A stretch of DNA of 45,495 bases from Candidatus Magasanikbacteria bacterium CG11_big_fil_rev_8_21_14_0_20_39_34. Lineage in GTDB: Bacteria; Patescibacteriota; Patescibacteriia; Magasanikbacterales; UBA922. Position 1 is the first letter of the stretch. Each line of letters begins with the position of its first letter. Below are positions 18,952 to 25,811 of the stretch, one piece after another. Location: the NCBI GenBank assembly GCA_002787355.1, contig PCWN01000002.1, positions 1 through 45,495 of the forward strand, written 5' to 3'. The notes under the pieces were generated by a model. That model saw nothing but the letters and a program-made list of their open reading frames with translations. It made no database searches and was not told where the DNA came from. Made by a program: the position numbers and the translations under genes.

Positions 18952-21438
18952 CTATTGTGTAATGGTAAATTCTGCTGATGTCTGTGCGCTATCTACATTA
19001 TTCGCATCTGCTGCCCAAACCCACCATTTGTAGTGGTGTCCGGCAACTAATGGGTCATTTGACCTAAAACTGGTGTTATTGAGTTCTCTTTCCCAAATAA
19101 CAGGTCCTTGGCCAGTGGTTATGTCATTAACCCAAATTTCGTAATGCTGAGCTCCAGCTACTGGATTCCATCGAAAGGTTGGATTCACCTCAGCAGTATT
19201 ACCCTGCGGTCCAATAACCGTTGGAGCAGCCAGTTGTTGGGCTCCAATGGTAAATGTCATTCCATTAGACCATGTTCCATTGGTATTTCCAGCTGCAGCT
19301 CGTACATACCATGAGTACTGTACTCCTTGTTGTAAATCTTGATCTAGAGTATAACTGGTTGCTTGAAGGTTATATCTTCGAACAGGATTTTGACCCTGTG
19401 TCTGTACCCACAATTCATAGTGATCTGCGCCTGCTACCGGTTGCCAACGGAAACTTGGCCGTCTGGACTCAACATTTCCAGTTGGTGAAAGAAGTGTAGG
19501 CTTTGTTGCTGCATTAAAAGCATTCACTACCTCTTGTTGTGGCTGTGCTTGACCCACAACCGTAAATTGAGGGCCTGAATACCAACTTGAAAGCTGATCA
19601 TTGGGTCCATGGCTTCTTACCCACCATCTATGTACTCCTGCCTTTAGATTTTGTTGATCTGCATAGTTTGATCCATTTACTTGCGTATTGATGAATCCAT
19701 TTTCTCGAGTTGTAATATTACTTACGTATACATCATATTGAGTTGCGCCAGGAATATCTTGCCAGTCAAAGAGCGTACGTACTCCATTTACCTGACCATT
19801 TGGAGCCACAAATGTTATGGCACGTGTGCTATCATAGAGTGCGTTCCCTGCAGCTGGTGCACCAATTGTGAAGCTCACTTCTCGTGCCCAGTTGGAAACA
19901 TAGGACCTTCCTTCTCCATAGGCCAAAACTTTCCATACATATTCACCTTCATCCAAGTTAAGTGCAGGAGTATAAGAGGTACCACGCACAACTTCATTGA
20001 TATCCTCACCAACTCGGTTACTTTTTCTCACAGCTAACTGGTACTCCACAGCTCCATCTACAGCCTCCCAACGGAAAGTTGGTGTTCTGTCTGCGGTACG
20101 TCCATTTGGAGTAGTAAGTACTGGGAAGATGTTGCGGTAGTCGGGCCTTGGAATGTTAAATAACATTGCAGAAGACCAGTCTGATGCATAACTTCCATCT
20201 GGATAGTAGGCAAGAATCTTCCAACTATATTCTCCATAATCCATCTCATCCTGTGGAGTATAGTCCGTTCCTTGAACATTTTCATTGATAAATTGTGTCA
20301 ATCCATTTGGTGAAGTGACAGAAAGTAAATAATGATCTGCACCTTCCACGGCATTCCAACTAAAGGTAGGTGTTCTATCATTTATTGCCGCACTTGGAGC
20401 AAGAAGTGTTGGATGAACATCATGAAAATTTCTTTGATTCCCTGCATTTACTATGAAAACCTTTGGCAATCCCCATGTACCCACATTTCCTTGTGCATCA
20501 TATGGTTGTATCCATCCGGTGTAGCGACCATTTTGTAAGTCTCCATCCAGGGTATACCTATTTTCTACAATGTGCTGTCTTTGTATAATAGTTTCCCATC
20601 GTCCATTATCACCTTGTCTTTGGATATTGAGATTATATCCTGCAGCACCAGAAACTCTCTCCCAATCAAAAGTTGGTCGTCGAGTATCTATATTTCCGCT
20701 TGGTTGGTAAATGGTTAATCTATAAGTGTTATCAAATGCACCTTCTCTATTTTCTGGATCAACGATACGGAAACTTCGGATAGAACGTTGACTATCACTG
20801 TATACAGCACGTCCCGCATCCCCAACAGCAACAATAACAAAGGAATAGGATCCGGTTGAAAGTCCATTCAAATCAAATGAATTTCCATGAATATTCCTGT
20901 TTAAAACAAGATTTCTTCCGTTTTCATCTGTTACTGATACACGATAGAAGAGCGCTCCCGGATACACTTCCCAACTGAAGTGGGGAGATCTCTCTTCAGT
21001 TCTCTCCGCAGGAGTCAAAATGGTTACATGACCATTGGCATTGAACTGTGGTGCTACTAAATAGTTCCTTAAAATATCAATACTAAGAGGTCTTGCCTGG
21101 GACGTTTGTCCACTATATTGTCCTCCTAAAATACCCACTTCGTAGGTATAGTGATGATCAAGATTTACCAAACGCAATCGAAGATCATAATGCGCTTCTC
21201 GAATATTATCATCAAATACGGAGCATTGTGTTGGGTTTGCTCCATCTAAGTCCTTAAGACAAAATGTATACGCGGTGGCTCCCTCTACAGGCTGCCAATC
21301 GACTCGAATACTTAAATCTGGTTGCCAACCATTTGGCAGGGCATACGCCACTTTGGGGAGAAAAAAAGCAGAAAACGCGGCCACAACAAAAAGTGCCACG
21401 TACCACCCTGCTTTCCTCGACAAAATTCCTTGTTGCAT
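18952..21438 (-). CDS. secreted protein with eight Fn3-like repeats
   Basis: 828 aa. Signal peptide at residues 1-33 (basic start, hydrophobic core 'YVALFVVAAFSAFFL', AYA cleavage site). The rest is about eight repeats of roughly 95 residues. Each carries the core 'PTFxWxxVxGAxxYxLxV', for example 'TPTFSWNAVEGADHYLLSV', 'RPSFRWQPVAGADHYELWV' and 'NPTFRWNPVAGAQHYEIWV'. The repeats end with a Trp-x-W/V-A region, as in fibronectin type III-like domains of bacterial surface proteins. There is no membrane anchor or sortase motif at the C-terminus (ends AEFTITQ), so it is released or held non-covalently. Adhesion or surface-coat roles are plausible. Promoter TTGGGA-16-TATACT lies upstream. Confidence 0.8.
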   Translation of the reverse strand: MQQGILSRKAGWYVALFVVAAFSAFFLPKVAYALPNGWQPDLSIRVDWQPVEGATAYTFCLKDLDGANPTQCSVFDDNIREAHYDLRLRLVNLDHHYTYEVGILGGQYSGQTSQARPLSIDILRNYLVAPQFNANGHVTILTPAERTEERSPHFSWEVYPGALFYRVSVTDENGRNLVLNRNIHGNSFDLNGLSTGSYSFVIVAVGDAGRAVYSDSQRSIRSFRIVDPENREGAFDNTYRLTIYQPSGNIDTRRPTFDWERVSGAAGYNLNIQRQGDNGRWETIIQRQHIVENRYTLDGDLQNGRYTGWIQPYDAQGNVGTWGLPKVFIVNAGNQRNFHDVHPTLLAPSAAINDRTPTFSWNAVEGADHYLLSVTSPNGLTQFINENVQGTDYTPQDEMDYGEYSWKILAYYPDGSYASDWSSAMLFNIPRPDYRNIFPVLTTPNGRTADRTPTFRWEAVDGAVEYQLAVRKSNRVGEDINEVVRGTSYTPALNLDEGEYVWKVLAYGEGRSYVSNWAREVSFTIGAPAAGNALYDSTRAITFVAPNGQVNGVRTLFDWQDIPGATQYDVYVSNITTRENGFINTQVNGSNYADQQNLKAGVHRWWVRSHGPNDQLSSWYSGPQFTVVGQAQPQQEVVNAFNAATKPTLLSPTGNVESRRPSFRWQPVAGADHYELWVQTQGQNPVRRYNLQATSYTLDQDLQQGVQYSWYVRAAAGNTNGTWSNGMTFTIGAQQLAAPTVIGPQGNTAEVNPTFRWNPVAGAQHYEIWVNDITTGQGPVIWERELNNTSFRSNDPLVAGHHYKWWVWAADANNVDSAQTSAEFTITQ

Positions 21439-21517
21439 AGGTATTATTTTATGAATAAAACATTTTATTATATGAATTTAGTATACCATGGGTTACCTCT
21501 TTCCCAAAATTTTTCCC

Positions 21518-22285
21518 CTAAAATTGAGCCACACATGCAGATATGTCTTTACTCATGGTCCACTCACATTTTCCATTTCTTTGCCTTTCACAAAGCGCTT
21601 TTTGAAAACAAATATATTCTTCTTTATACATGCAGTCAGTCAAAACTTTTTCATCAGAACAGACCTGAGCGCTGCAACCACTTATGACACACCCATCTTT
21701 TTCTCGTTCTTCTTTTGAAGAGGGCACACTTTTTTCGTCTTCACTCTCTTGAAAAGTAATGGGTACCCGGTATTCCTCATCATTTTCCCGCATGTCAGAT
21801 GGATTATCCTTTTGAAAAATCAAAAAACCCGTTGGAGGCAAAGGCTCTTCACCCATCCCAATAGGTTTCCATTCAAACTGAATATCTGTATGGAATGGCA
21901 CCATTTTTTCCGTCATCCAATCTCCTTGTGCTGTGGCAATTCCATCCCCAATAACTTTCCCATGTGCGTCTACAACCATAACGGGAAAACTACCCTCAAA
22001 AAAGTAGCGTCCAGGAGCTTCACCCACTATACTTACTGGACTTTTTATGGTTTGTTCTGGTACGAGATTTGAAAAAGTGAGAGGAGCCTCTTTTGTTGTG
22101 GTTTCATCCTGTATATTCACTTTTGGTGAAGGAATCACCTCTAGATCTTGCATTACCTTCTCTTTTGGAATTTCCTTTTCTTTTTCATTCCCAAATTTCA
22201 TATGAATAAAGTACCCCAAGTACACCGACACCCCCATAAGACATAACACCAAGACTCCCAGTCCCCAAATAACAGATTTTTTCAT
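21518..22285 (-). CDS. membrane-anchored Gmad2 and eight-cysteine protein
   Basis: 255 aa. An N-terminal helix (about residues 7-27) anchors the protein outside the membrane. After a polar linker comes a Gmad2 immunoglobulin-like domain, about residues 68-180 ('QTIKSPVSIVGEAPGRYFFE', 'FPVMVVDAHGKVIG', 'ATAQGDWMTEKMVPF'). Gmad2 is found in spore germination proteins and in many exported proteins of non-sporulating bacteria. The C-terminal 60 residues contain exactly eight cysteines ('GCVISGCSAQVCSDEKVLTD' onward), matching the pattern of small eight-cysteine cluster domains. Disulfides could be made by the DsbA-like/VKOR pair at 29947-31024. Function unknown. Confidence 0.75.
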   Translation of the reverse strand: MKKSVIWGLGVLVLCLMGVSVYLGYFIHMKFGNEKEKEIPKEKVMQDLEVIPSPKVNIQDETTTKEAPLTFSNLVPEQTIKSPVSIVGEAPGRYFFEGSFPVMVVDAHGKVIGDGIATAQGDWMTEKMVPFHTDIQFEWKPIGMGEEPLPPTGFLIFQKDNPSDMRENDEEYRVPITFQESEDEKSVPSSKEEREKDGCVISGCSAQVCSDEKVLTDCMYKEEYICFQKALCERQRNGKCEWTMSKDISACVAQF

Positions 22286-22348
22286 ATTTTTATGGTTATT
22301 AATAAAAAAACATATATGTCTCTATTGTACCCTTCTTGAAAAAATAAA

Positions 22349-22378
22349 AAAAGCCCTTATCAAGAGGCGCTTTTTTTA
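22349..22378. terminator. bidirectional terminator
   Basis: AAGCCCTT and AAGAGGCGCTT arms (one bulge) with long A and T runs on each side. On the minus strand it starts directly after the stop of the 25-codon ORF at 22376-22453. Confidence 0.7.
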
Positions 22379-22453
22379 GGTAAGTATACTTAGGAGAACT
22401 GCAAGAACAATGTTTAGCATGATCCCCGTGAAAAAGGCAAGATGAATGCTCAT
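22376..22453 (-). CDS. possible 25-aa hydrophobic peptide
   Basis: ATG at 22453 opens a short frame (MSIHLAFFTGIMLNIVLAVL followed by LSILT). It would be a single membrane helix. Its leader TTGAAATATG matches the SD-less start context common in this window and its stop abuts a terminator. A structured segment (22503-22565) lies upstream between two bidirectional terminators, as in a stand-alone unit. Small hydrophobic peptides of this kind include type I toxins and membrane regulators, but nothing here proves expression. Confidence 0.35.
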   Translation of the reverse strand: MSIHLAFFTGIMLNIVLAVLLSILT

Positions 22454-22502
22454 ATTTCAACATTAATGGATATATCCAATGAGTGAGTGGGTAAACCCCA
22501 TA

Positions 22503-22565
22503 ACAAGGGGGAAGAAAGCATTGAGCCAAAGGGGTGCTAACATTTGGCCTGCTTCCTCCCCTTGT
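22503..22565. ncRNA. structured intergenic segment, candidate RNA or leader
   Basis: Outer arms ACAAGGGG/CCCCTTGT and inner arms GCCAAA/TTTGGC, with partial pairing between (AAGCA against TGCTT), form a 63-nt hairpin. The minus strand includes GGAAGCAG, which recalls the SRP RNA core, but the opposite strand of that core is missing. The strand is undecided. The region 22379-22612 lies between bidirectional terminators and holds only this and the 25-codon ORF. It also contains the palindromes TAAGTATACTTA (22381-22392) and TGGATATATCCA (22470-22481). Confidence 0.35.
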
Positions 22566-22612
22566 ACTCTATATGACGTATAAGGAAAGAAAATCTTACA
22601 AAGTAAAAAAAT

Positions 22613-22645
22613 AAAAGAGTGCTCATATTGGGCACTCTTTTATTT
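22613..22645. terminator. bidirectional terminator after the sigma/anti-sigma unit
   Basis: AAAAGAGTGC and GCACTCTTTT arms around TCATATTGG, with T runs on both strands; 8 nt past the stop of 22653-25142. Confidence 0.85.
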
Positions 22646-22652
22646 TTCTACT

Positions 22653-25142
22653 TTAGTAGTCTTCACTCGGGAACTCTGATACCACACTAAACATATTACT
22701 TTGCACGGATACTCCTCCTGGGCCAATTATCTCAAATCGGTAGGTGTTGGGCGCAAAGTCCTCTGGTATCTGCCACATAAGCTTTCCAGTATCAATGGAG
22801 ATACTCTTTGAAAGCACAGCCAATACTTCTCCACCCCAACCTTCCAAAAGTATTTGGACTTGTTCTTGTGTACCGCTGTGAGATGATGAAGGCCTCCATT
22901 CTAATATAATAGGATATCCTCGCTTGTAAAAGTTTGGAACGGGAGCGAGAATCTTTGCAAACGAGGTATCGTCTCCAACTTCTCGTTTTACAATTTGTAG
23001 TCTTCCCTTTTTTGTTACATCTACACGAACTCCATAAGATCGAACCTGAAAAATATTTTCTTTGTCTTCAAAAGAAATATCCTCCGGATGTGCAATACCA
23101 CAGAAAATGGTTTGTGGACGAAGACCTTCTTTTACTCGCACAAATACACGATATACTGCTTTTTCTGAAATAGGTTCTGCAAGATTATCAAAGAAAATGA
23201 ATTCTTGACTACTTTGTTCTGCCATTTTGCTCAGCTTTCCGCCCACACGTTGTATACGAGCTTGAGATATATATTTTCCATTTGCACTACAAGTAAGAAG
23301 TATATTATCAAGTACTACCTTTGCACTTGGCTTTATAGAAAACTCAGCTGCAATGGACTCATCGGTGTTTTCTGCTACATAGTATGTTTCTTCCTGCACA
23401 ACATCCACATTTACAAGTGGTGCATCACTATCTATGATATCAAATATTTCACTACGTCCTACAACATTTCCCTTTGCCTCTACTTCAATATAATACCTTC
23501 CCGGCAAAATAGTATGAGGGATATTATATAACAAACTTCCTTTAAATAATCCTGGAAGATTCTCCGTTATGATATCTGCAATACGCCCGTCCATATTTCT
23601 TAGAAAAAAGTTTGACGCTGTCCCTCCCAAAGATCCATCAAGCATCTTCCAACGAATAATATTGGCATTTGTTGAATATTTGAAAAACTCTGCCAAACGA
23701 TTTGGAGTAATAAACTCAATTCCCTTTTGGAAAGGAGCAAGCTGTAATTCAGTTTTTCCAGTGGGGTCTTCTTTTTTCTGGTCAAGGATAAGAGAAAGAT
23801 CAACGGAGGTATCTTTTACATAGGCGACACTTAACTTTGTCAGTGCATATTGTGAAGCATTACTACTACTTGCTCTTATGGTGTAGGTCCCTGGAATTAC
23901 TCGGAAGTATACCTTCCCGGCAACATCTGTGTAGTGACTATCAACTTTCATTCCCTTCATATCAAAAATTTCAACCAAAGCATTGTGTACTGAAGTATCA
24001 ACACCATTCTCCATCCCACGCACGTTTACCTGTACGCCCGTTGAGGTCACAGTTGGTTCTATGACATGAAATACACCGGAAATACTTGTAAATCGTGTTC
24101 CGGAATTTCCAAAAAATGATGCACGTATTTTGAAAGTTCCGGGTTCTAATTTTTCTGACTGCAAATCATTTTCATGACGGAAAATAAACTTTGGATCCCA
24201 TATAATTTTTCCATCTTGAGATGATTTTACTCCAATAAATCCGGCAACACTATTGTCTTCACGCAAAAGTTCAAGTGTCAGTGAACCGGATTCATGGGTC
24301 TGATCAGTCCACAAAATAGCATAGCTATTCCCCATAACCAAACTCTCTCCAACTTCTGGAAAAACAAATTGAATTCTCTTGTCATTGGGCAAATCACCAT
24401 CTTCACCAATATCTGGTCCCGTTATCCCTTGACGCGCAAGGAAGAGACGAAATTCCGCAGACTTTGCCGTTTGTTGTGTAGACTCAATATTTTCAACTAA
24501 CTTCTGTACCTCTGGATCTACTGCCCCTGGATTTTTTTGCACCAATTCAGAAAGCAGTCTACTATACGTATCAAGTGAACCTTGCAGTTGGTTTACAATG
24601 GAGAGGATTGCTTCGGAATCACCATTATCATGCAAACTTCGGGTTGCAAGTGCAACTTGCTTGCTGTGACGTGTAATATTTTCTTGTGCCAATTCCAGAA
24701 ATTGATCATCCGGATGTCCATTTTGTTGAATCAATTTTTCTATTTCAAGAAGTCTACGTTCTACACGTTCTGCCTCCCATTGAGCTTTGTCCCGTTCAGA
24801 AAAGAGAAAGGCAGACCGAAGTTCTTCTGAAACATTTACTTTAAATCCATACAATGCTTCTCCGGGAAGAGCACCTTCTGCTGCAAAGGTTGTGGCACCC
24901 CCACCAACAATGACAACTACAATGGCAAGTGCAACATACACAAAACTTCTTGCAAACCCTGCCAAAAATGCACCCATAAGAGAGGGAGAGTGTACTTTTT
25001 CCTTCTTTATTTTTTGTTTTTTTCCTTGCAAAGGATTTTCTTGCATAAATGACAAGATGGCATCATCCATTTGTTGATGTTCTTTTTCGTTCATCTCTAT
25101 CTCGTTACGAAATCGGTGAATTTTTTTGAAAAATTGATCCAT
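22653..25142 (-). CDS. putative membrane anti-sigma factor with large extracellular region
   Basis: 829 aa, starting MDQFFKKIHRF 4 nt after the ECF sigma stop; an ATG at 25229 inside the sigma gene is less likely. The first 65 or so residues are polar and cytosolic. A transmembrane helix 'SFVYVALAIVVVIVGGG' is followed by a DUF5667-like region, 'ALPGEALYGFKVNVSEELRS' and coiled helices ('QWEAERVERRLLEIEKLIQQ'). Beyond are several beta domains: an 'FVFPEVGESLVMGNSYAILW' Ig-like module near residue 255, a carboxypeptidase-regulatory-like module ('VEIFDMKGMKVDSHYTDVAG'), and others to the C-terminus. Gene order and topology suggest it holds and releases the sigma factor in response to an outside signal; this is inference. 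No known anti-sigma zinc motif is seen. Confidence 0.65.
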   Translation of the reverse strand: MDQFFKKIHRFRNEIEMNEKEHQQMDDAILSFMQENPLQGKKQKIKKEKVHSPSLMGAFLAGFARSFVYVALAIVVVIVGGGATTFAAEGALPGEALYGFKVNVSEELRSAFLFSERDKAQWEAERVERRLLEIEKLIQQNGHPDDQFLELAQENITRHSKQVALATRSLHDNGDSEAILSIVNQLQGSLDTYSRLLSELVQKNPGAVDPEVQKLVENIESTQQTAKSAEFRLFLARQGITGPDIGEDGDLPNDKRIQFVFPEVGESLVMGNSYAILWTDQTHESGSLTLELLREDNSVAGFIGVKSSQDGKIIWDPKFIFRHENDLQSEKLEPGTFKIRASFFGNSGTRFTSISGVFHVIEPTVTSTGVQVNVRGMENGVDTSVHNALVEIFDMKGMKVDSHYTDVAGKVYFRVIPGTYTIRASSSNASQYALTKLSVAYVKDTSVDLSLILDQKKEDPTGKTELQLAPFQKGIEFITPNRLAEFFKYSTNANIIRWKMLDGSLGGTASNFFLRNMDGRIADIITENLPGLFKGSLLYNIPHTILPGRYYIEVEAKGNVVGRSEIFDIIDSDAPLVNVDVVQEETYYVAENTDESIAAEFSIKPSAKVVLDNILLTCSANGKYISQARIQRVGGKLSKMAEQSSQEFIFFDNLAEPISEKAVYRVFVRVKEGLRPQTIFCGIAHPEDISFEDKENIFQVRSYGVRVDVTKKGRLQIVKREVGDDTSFAKILAPVPNFYKRGYPIILEWRPSSSHSGTQEQVQILLEGWGGEVLAVLSKSISIDTGKLMWQIPEDFAPNTYRFEIIGPGGVSVQSNMFSVVSEFPSEDY

Positions 25143-25146
25143 ATAT

Positions 25147-25638
25147 TTATATATATTTCTCAAGTTGTTGCTTTCCGCGATGAATACGCACAGAAACAAC
25201 ATTTTCTGAAAGCCCCAGAGCAAGAGCAATATCCTGCACAGATAACCCTTCTATAAAACGCATTTTCATAACCTCTTGATATTTTTCACTGAGCTTTTCA
25301 ATAATTTGCAAGGCCGCAAGAGCATCCTGTTTTATTTCTTCTTTTTCTCTGGAAACTTCTACGTCAAATCCATGCTCCATAAGTGCCTCAAGAGAGGTTT
25401 CTTTCTTTTTTCGAGAATAATCCACGACAAGATGATAGGCAGTTTTGTAAATAAATGCCTTCAGATATTCTACTTCTTTCCCAGAACTAATATATTTCCA
25501 GACCTTTATGAAGGTTTCCTGGGTGAGCTCTCGTGCAATGTCTCGATCATACACACGAAAAGCAAAATACCGAAAGATTTCATCGGAATGCCTATTATAA
25601 TGTTCTATGTAATTTTGTTCAATTTGGCTTTGTGCCAT
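25147..25638 (-). CDS. ECF-type RNA polymerase sigma factor
   Basis: 163 aa. Region 2 is 'NRHSDEIFRYFAFRVYDRDI' to 'ARELTQETFIKVWKYI', with the conserved aromatic and Asp/Glu residues for core binding and -10 melting. Region 4 is 'IEKLSEKYQEVMKMRFIEGL' then 'SVQDIALALGLSENVVSVRI', a helix-turn-helix ending 'HRGKQQLEKYI'. The frame extends upstream to 25722, but the promoter at 25670-25698 would start transcription inside that stretch, so MAQSQIEQ at 25638 is the likely start. Followed after 4 nt by its likely membrane partner. Target promoters are unknown. Confidence 0.88.
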   Translation of the reverse strand: MAQSQIEQNYIEHYNRHSDEIFRYFAFRVYDRDIARELTQETFIKVWKYISSGKEVEYLKAFIYKTAYHLVVDYSRKKKETSLEALMEHGFDVEVSREKEEIKQDALAALQIIEKLSEKYQEVMKMRFIEGLSVQDIALALGLSENVVSVRIHRGKQQLEKYI

Positions 25639-25669
25639 AGCCCGGATATGATTTCCTTTATTTTGGCTA

Positions 25670-25698
25670 ACTATAGGCAAAAAATCAAATTTTGTCAA
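25670..25698 (-). promoter_or_regulatory. promoter of the ECF sigma operon
   Basis: Minus strand TTGACA (25698-25693), 17-nt spacer, TATAGT (25675-25670). A housekeeping-type promoter, so the operon does not depend only on its own sigma. Confidence 0.8.
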
Positions 25699-25811
25699 AT
25701 TTTTTATCACCCCAATTGGCATACATTCCGAAATATTTTTCTTTCTTCATATACTGTGACGTATTTCGAGCCAAGAATCTTACATATGGAAAAAAAGACA
25801 AAATGATATAT

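Follow-up and report, generated by a model that had tools for sequence, protein, structure and literature searches.

A predicted ECF sigma/anti-sigma operon with an enlarged extracellular region in a Magasanikbacteria genome

The described systems that come closest to the one treated here, an extracytoplasmic function (ECF) sigma factor gene followed by the gene of an 829-residue membrane protein in Candidatus Magasanikbacteria bacterium CG11_big_fil_rev_8_21_14_0_20_39_34, are all sigma/anti-sigma pairs. The stretch analysed, hereafter the window, comprises the 45,495 nucleotides of PCWN01000002.1 (contig C5 of a 1.18-Mb genome). In Streptomyces, the ECF sigma factor BldN has an adjacent rsbN gene and a surface-related regulon (PMC4255298). 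SigM-YhdLK of Bacillus subtilis governs a wall-synthesis regulon that includes murB and ponA, and release of SigM without proteolysis occurs (PMC11081497). In SigI-RsgI of cellulolytic clostridia, which is autoregulated, the anti-sigma factor joins a domain inside the cell to a sensory module outside it through one membrane domain (PMC6056542), and class I anti-sigma factors (RseA, RsiW, ChrR type) make a dual contact with sigma4 and sigma2 (PMC7406223). A search of a literature collection found no paper mentioning DUF5667, the domain that marks the membrane protein of our locus, or describing an ECF/anti-sigma system of Patescibacteria.

The locus resembles BldN-RsbN (class III; PDB 6dxo) in combining an ECF sigma factor with an adjacent membrane partner whose inside domain is short, helical and zinc-free, and a PDB search with the window's sigma factor places BldN among its best sequence relatives. 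It differs in that the inside-domain profile misses RsbN (the 6dxo chains are not listed at E up to 10) and in that the sigma factor lies far under the BldN family cut-off. RsbN has three helices, the first two on sigma4 and the third on sigma2; the model of a relative described below has two confident helices and a low-confidence third. With SigI-RsgI it shares the inside domain, the single membrane domain, the outside module and, as predicted, autoregulation, but SigI falls outside the ECF group and has no canonical sigma4, and the outside modules of RsgI sense polysaccharides. Covariation suggests a class I-like dual contact with sigma4 and sigma2; unlike class I, however, the partner has no Hx3Cx2C zinc motif (residues 1-60 contain no cysteine), two inside helices instead of a four-helix domain, and no Pfam match there. 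The anti-sigma proteins of SigM-YhdLK are unrelated to ours, and the -35 element of the window system is GTAAG.

Pairing and co-evolution of the sigma factor and its partner

We read the locus, with a probability of about 80%, as an autoregulated operon in which the partner binds the sigma factor and holds it at the membrane, senses the envelope or surface state, and releases the sigma factor to TGTAAGA-N15/16-CGTC promoters. In the own genome all three DUF5667 genes sit behind an ECF gene, which argues that the pairing is not due to chance. Across an order-wide set of 39 genomes, an ECF sigma gene immediately precedes 40 of the 58 DUF5667 genes, and in an independent set, collected with an extracellular-pattern search, a sigma gene is directly upstream in 72 of 80 loci, five of the others having neither sigma gene nor cytoplasmic part and three beginning at or near a contig edge. 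That a sigma gene came to lie beside the gene of an unrelated surface protein by chance, in favour of which the 18 DUF5667 proteins of the order not beside a sigma gene could be quoted, is refuted by these counts and by the matching trees, and keeps practically no probability. In all 40 paired proteins the membrane helix is preceded by 32-89 residues, in all 18 unpaired ones by at most 22, which are signal peptides (the start of paired genes was chosen near the sigma stop, and for the unpaired genes the first ATG was used, a choice that favours length). The N-terminal stretch of the paired partners is translated, as its conserved motif shows.

The two proteins also show signs of co-evolution. 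The correlation of sigma and partner distances is 0.63 (r) for true pairs against a mean of 0.29 for within-genome swaps of paralogous pairs, which control for shared ancestry (p 0.0045), and the covariation between sigma factor and inside domain in 94 pairs is above that of random and of close-neighbour-swapped pairings (0/200 for the top 30 pairs). For helix 1 the covarying sigma positions lie mostly on the sigma4 side, for the end of helix 2 on the sigma2 side. Being co-encoded with the sigma factor, and having a cytoplasmic N-terminal domain, a single membrane helix and a sensor-like outside part, the partner has the features of a membrane anti-sigma factor, and with good confidence we predict that it binds and inhibits the adjacent sigma factor.

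Concerning the proteins themselves, the sigma factor contains sigma2 and sigma4 only, including the region 4.2 helix-turn-helix (Pfam E values of 3.9e-7 for region 2 and 5.9e-15 for region 4.2), all within 163 aa, as in ECF (group IV) factors. Its start is probably ATG 25638, because a TTGACA-17-TATAGT promoter sits within the longer open reading frame (ORF) and relatives start nearby; a 191-aa form from 25722 is possible. The partner begins with an ATG 4 nt past the sigma stop codon and has 60 residues inside. Its matches to DUF5667 (29.9 bits, cut-off 27) and to a Kre9_KNH-like Ig domain (27.5, cut-off 24.6) are above threshold, while a CarboxypepD_reg-like stretch scores under its own. ORF positions, Pfam domains and hydropathy thus bear out the preliminary description of the locus, namely a sigma gene with a partner 4 nt behind it that has a short inside part, one membrane helix, a DUF5667-like region and extracellular beta domains. 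The outside part is unusually large, as within the order 38 of 40 paired partners have at most 526 residues; the closest homologue, in locus L060 (839 aa, 27% identity over 627 residues), is the other large one. A fold search with the full-length partner returned only generic Ig-domain strings (TM ~0.1) and was not used, and a plasmid search for DUF5667 relatives gave no match.

The predicted sigma-binding domain and the proposed mechanism

Starting from the pairing, co-evolution, promoter motif and operon limits seen in the comparison of about a hundred relatives, we infer binding, inhibition, signal and release as follows. Residues 1-36 of the partner, a two-helix domain, would bind the sigma factor at the membrane, out of reach of RNA polymerase (RNAP), while the partner's extracellular portion, a DUF5667 bundle plus beta domains, would sense the envelope or surface state. 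Upon a signal the sigma factor would be set free, through either regulated proteolysis or an allosteric change, and would then read TGTAAGA-N15/16-CGTC at its own operon and at an envelope gene set of the own genome. Proteolytic release is possible because the genome encodes two M50 proteases.

The inside domain of the window's family (type B) follows the consensus F.K.A..I.LT..EK..MR..L, then P.R. It has no match among PDB chains or in Pfam, and no Pfam anti-sigma match was obtained in 31 members. A sister family of the same order (type A) has the consensus LK.QLK.LK...NPD..WV..NR..LL.QI.NT; the two domains give no confident alignment, and homology between them was not demonstrated (probability 4%). 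Loci L121, L136, L137, L140, L161 and L173 (Peribacteria where named) apparently carry the inside domain twice in tandem.

An AlphaFold2 (AF2) model of the complex was built for L097 alone, a relative whose sigma and partner genes are in frame and were read through one stop codon. Both inside helices are modelled with a predicted local distance difference test (pLDDT) of 92-97 and a predicted template modelling score (pTM) of 0.79, a third helix being of low confidence. The sigma factor adopts a closed arrangement, closer to anti-sigma-bound SigW-RsiW (TMt 0.66) than to RNAP-bound forms (0.33-0.43), and it also matches CnrH-CnrY better than the latter. This predicted closed form speaks against the partner being a co-activator or a sigma-recruiting membrane platform and no inhibitor, an idea that would suit an inside domain lacking sequence match to known anti-sigma classes. 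As gene order and single membrane helix are those of membrane anti-sigma factors, and as the inside domain is lost exactly where no sigma gene is adjacent, we hold this alternative to be very improbable.

Promoter code and candidate regulon

The regions 5' of the sigma genes were searched exhaustively for 5-mer/gap/4-mer dyads, with shuffles as control. The top dyad of type B is GTAAG-N16-CGTC, found before 42 of 71 sigma genes, where shuffles give no more than 4; that of type A is GTAAC-N16-CGTC, before 26 of 33, with no crossover between types. A single -35 base sets the promoters of the two families apart. The -10 element of SigM is also of the CGTC type. Three positions in the recognition helix of region 4.2, namely 174, 177 and 179 when counted on the 191-residue ORF, are among those that best separate the two types and are candidate specificity residues. 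Type-A ECF/DUF5667 pairs with the different inside domain and the GTAAC-N16-CGTC promoter are found, e.g., at G000:C3:182732-184679 of the own genome (L003, L085). The natural GTAAC/GTAAG switch in sister systems lends itself to testing -35 recognition by ECF factors.

The motif also stands upstream of the window's sigma gene, with which the count for the family comes to 43 of 71, so that, from the promoter sequence, the operon may be taken as an autoregulated ECF sigma/anti-sigma pair. The preliminary description had proposed a search for a non-housekeeping promoter shared by surface genes, and one was found, preceding surface and wall genes in the own genome. The 17-spaced form TGTAAGA-N16-CGTC occurs five times there against four times in 38 relatives together, and each of the five has a gene for an envelope or exported protein close behind it. 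Outside the window, the four exact matches end 23-44 nt short of an ORF, a zone that holds about 1.3% of positions. The wall genes among these candidate targets recall the murB and ponA members of the SigM regulon, and the candidate regulon as a whole fits envelope and cell-wall homeostasis better than host contact. A relaxed scan with two mismatches fell below its control and was not used.

It is doubtful that the additional sites belong to a second sigma factor of the same type, encoded on contig C7, with the window's sigma factor regulating itself alone. Spacing-16 sites at the C7 sigma gene and within its partner gene, as well as the common recognition-helix residues of the family to which both sigma factors belong, would agree with it; the spacing-17 form of the window operon, however, also stands at the remaining targets and seldom occurs in relatives.

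Several observations weigh against the proposed operon and its regulon. An exact upstream motif is missing in L060 and L097, the two closest homologues; the L097 sigma factor and partner were modelled only as a fusion with a short linker; and AF2 confidence is low for the beta domains in the C-terminal half of the window's partner. In four other genomes of the family with a type-B sigma factor, hits beyond the sigma operon are no more frequent than in the control, and the same holds for such sites in one distant genome, G199. In G161 the only two hits of the genome both fall within the sigma operon. Because the other genomes are at control level, the wider regulon is claimed for the own genome alone.

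Within type-B partner genes, GTAAG-N16-CGT occurs in frame in 17 of 70, against a mean of 0.6 and a maximum of 3 in synonymous shuffles; examples are G000:C7:65865-65891 (L077, the second system of the own genome), L099, L117 and L151. In 15 of the 17, an in-frame start (ATG in 12) follows 17-62 nt on and opens a hydrophobic, signal-peptide-like N-terminus, and therefore an exported product devoid of the sigma-binding domain could arise. We give even odds to the broader proposal that Patescibacteria harbor widespread, undescribed sister ECF/anti-sigma families (GTAAG or GTAAC -35), one of them with an in-frame promoter copy in the anti-sigma gene from which the active sigma factor would make an exported DUF5667 form lacking the sigma-binding domain, a feedback on sensing; the window's member would be an enlarged sensor with no inner promoter. 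The analysis yields a family of putative sigma-binding domains, a promoter code together with residues that may determine specificity, and a set of candidate target genes, which is of relevance for reduced genomes whose regulation is hardly accessible by culture.

Neighbouring genes and related loci

Table 1. Features of the window and candidate sigma target sites elsewhere in the genome (contig:position).
Feature	Position	Strand	Basis or remark
ECF sigma factor gene, 163 aa	25147..25638	minus	Pfam Sigma70_r2 + r4_2; PDB relatives incl. SigE, BldN, SigW
Membrane-anchored anti-sigma factor (predicted), 829 aa	22653..25142	minus	comparison across relatives, covariation, AF2
Cytoplasmic sigma-binding domain (predicted), residues 1-36, helices 2-15 + 19-35	25035..25142	minus	motif conservation, covariation, AF2
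Single transmembrane helix, residues 61-79	24906..24962	minus	hydropathy
DUF5667 extracytoplasmic helical region, residues ~90-237	24432..24875	minus	Pfam PF18915; AF2 helices pLDDT 70-80
Extracellular beta domains, residues ~258-829	22656..24371	minus	Kre9_KNH + CarboxypepD_reg-like matches; AF2 strands
ECF-type promoter TGTAAGA-N16-CGTCA, 5' of sigma operon	25757..25784	minus	putative autoregulatory promoter
Sigma70-type promoter TTGACA-17-TATAGT, 11/12 consensus	25670..25698	minus	putative basal promoter
Intrinsic terminator ending two-gene operon	22606..22648	minus	hairpin fold -20 kcal/mol, z -8.3
Second site GTAAGA-N15-CGTCA, spacing 16	22574..22600	minus	5' of two tiny ORFs, weaker hairpin, then Gmad2 gene
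Gmad2 + eight-cysteine protein, membrane-anchored, 255 aa	21518..22285	minus	outside operon
Exported protein, eight Fn3/Ig-like repeats, 828 aa	18952..21438	minus	outside operon
TGTAAGA-N16-CGTC site	C2:9772		before exported subtilase
TGTAAGA-N16-CGTC site	C3:55867		before membrane-anchored 502-residue protein
TGTAAGA-N16-CGTC site	C4:266917		before PGA_cap/CapA-like protein
TGTAAGA-N16-CGTC site	C4:110492		before wall-precursor operon: ATP-grasp protein, 279-residue protein, Glycos_transf_4 (MraY-like) protein
One-mismatch site	C4:110431		before murB; overlaps divergent ATP-grasp promoter
One-mismatch site	C7:69911		before PBP1A; PBP1A gene upstream of second type-B sigma gene

Both neighbouring proteins are as first described: Gmad2 was found and eight cysteines were counted in the one (TIGR04289 E 4e-7, under its cut-off), and the other has eight W-x4-G-A-x2-Y repeats at a spacing of about 100 residues. 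Because a strong terminator ends the sigma operon, their genes are separate transcription units, and their membership of the operon was rejected, the terminator standing right behind the partner gene. In L060, neither a Gmad2 nor an Fn3-repeat gene lies alongside the pair.

These genes matter for the alternative in which the system is a contact sensor, whose outside region binds a host surface and whose sigma factor turns on adhesion genes such as the two neighbours. A big outside region with Ig-like domains, exported neighbours and a single promoter-like site ahead of the Gmad2 gene agree with it; against it stand the separate transcription of the neighbours, their absence beside the closest homologue, and the nature of the other candidate targets (wall synthesis, CapA-like and protease genes), so that we give it only a slim chance. 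Of the earlier suggestion, the membrane regulator with a large outside sensor finds good support in pairing, domain layout, trees and covariation, while sensing of host-surface contact found no support, the candidate regulon resembling one for envelope and wall homeostasis.

Between 22580 and 22390 of the window, upstream of the Gmad2 gene, lie two tiny hydrophobic ORFs of 26 and 25 codons in one frame, with two stops between them, followed by a weaker terminator-like hairpin; both ORFs lie behind the second ECF-type site. Just 3' of the L060 pair, a small M50-type protease gene was recognised by eye (L060:5082-5702).

Among the related loci, L135, L148, L156, L157 and L162 are natural DUF5667 genes with neither cytoplasmic domain nor sigma gene, starting at a Met that matches the inner start. 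Large secreted DUF5667 proteins (767-1648 aa) with no sigma gene are encoded in L038-L042, L046, L048, L050, L053, L068 and L092, DUF5667 being placed mid-chain in some. Finally, a 363-residue fusion of a PAS-like N-terminus with an ECF sigma factor is encoded at G000:C3 ~116354-117445 (L007:874-1965), divergent from another ECF gene.

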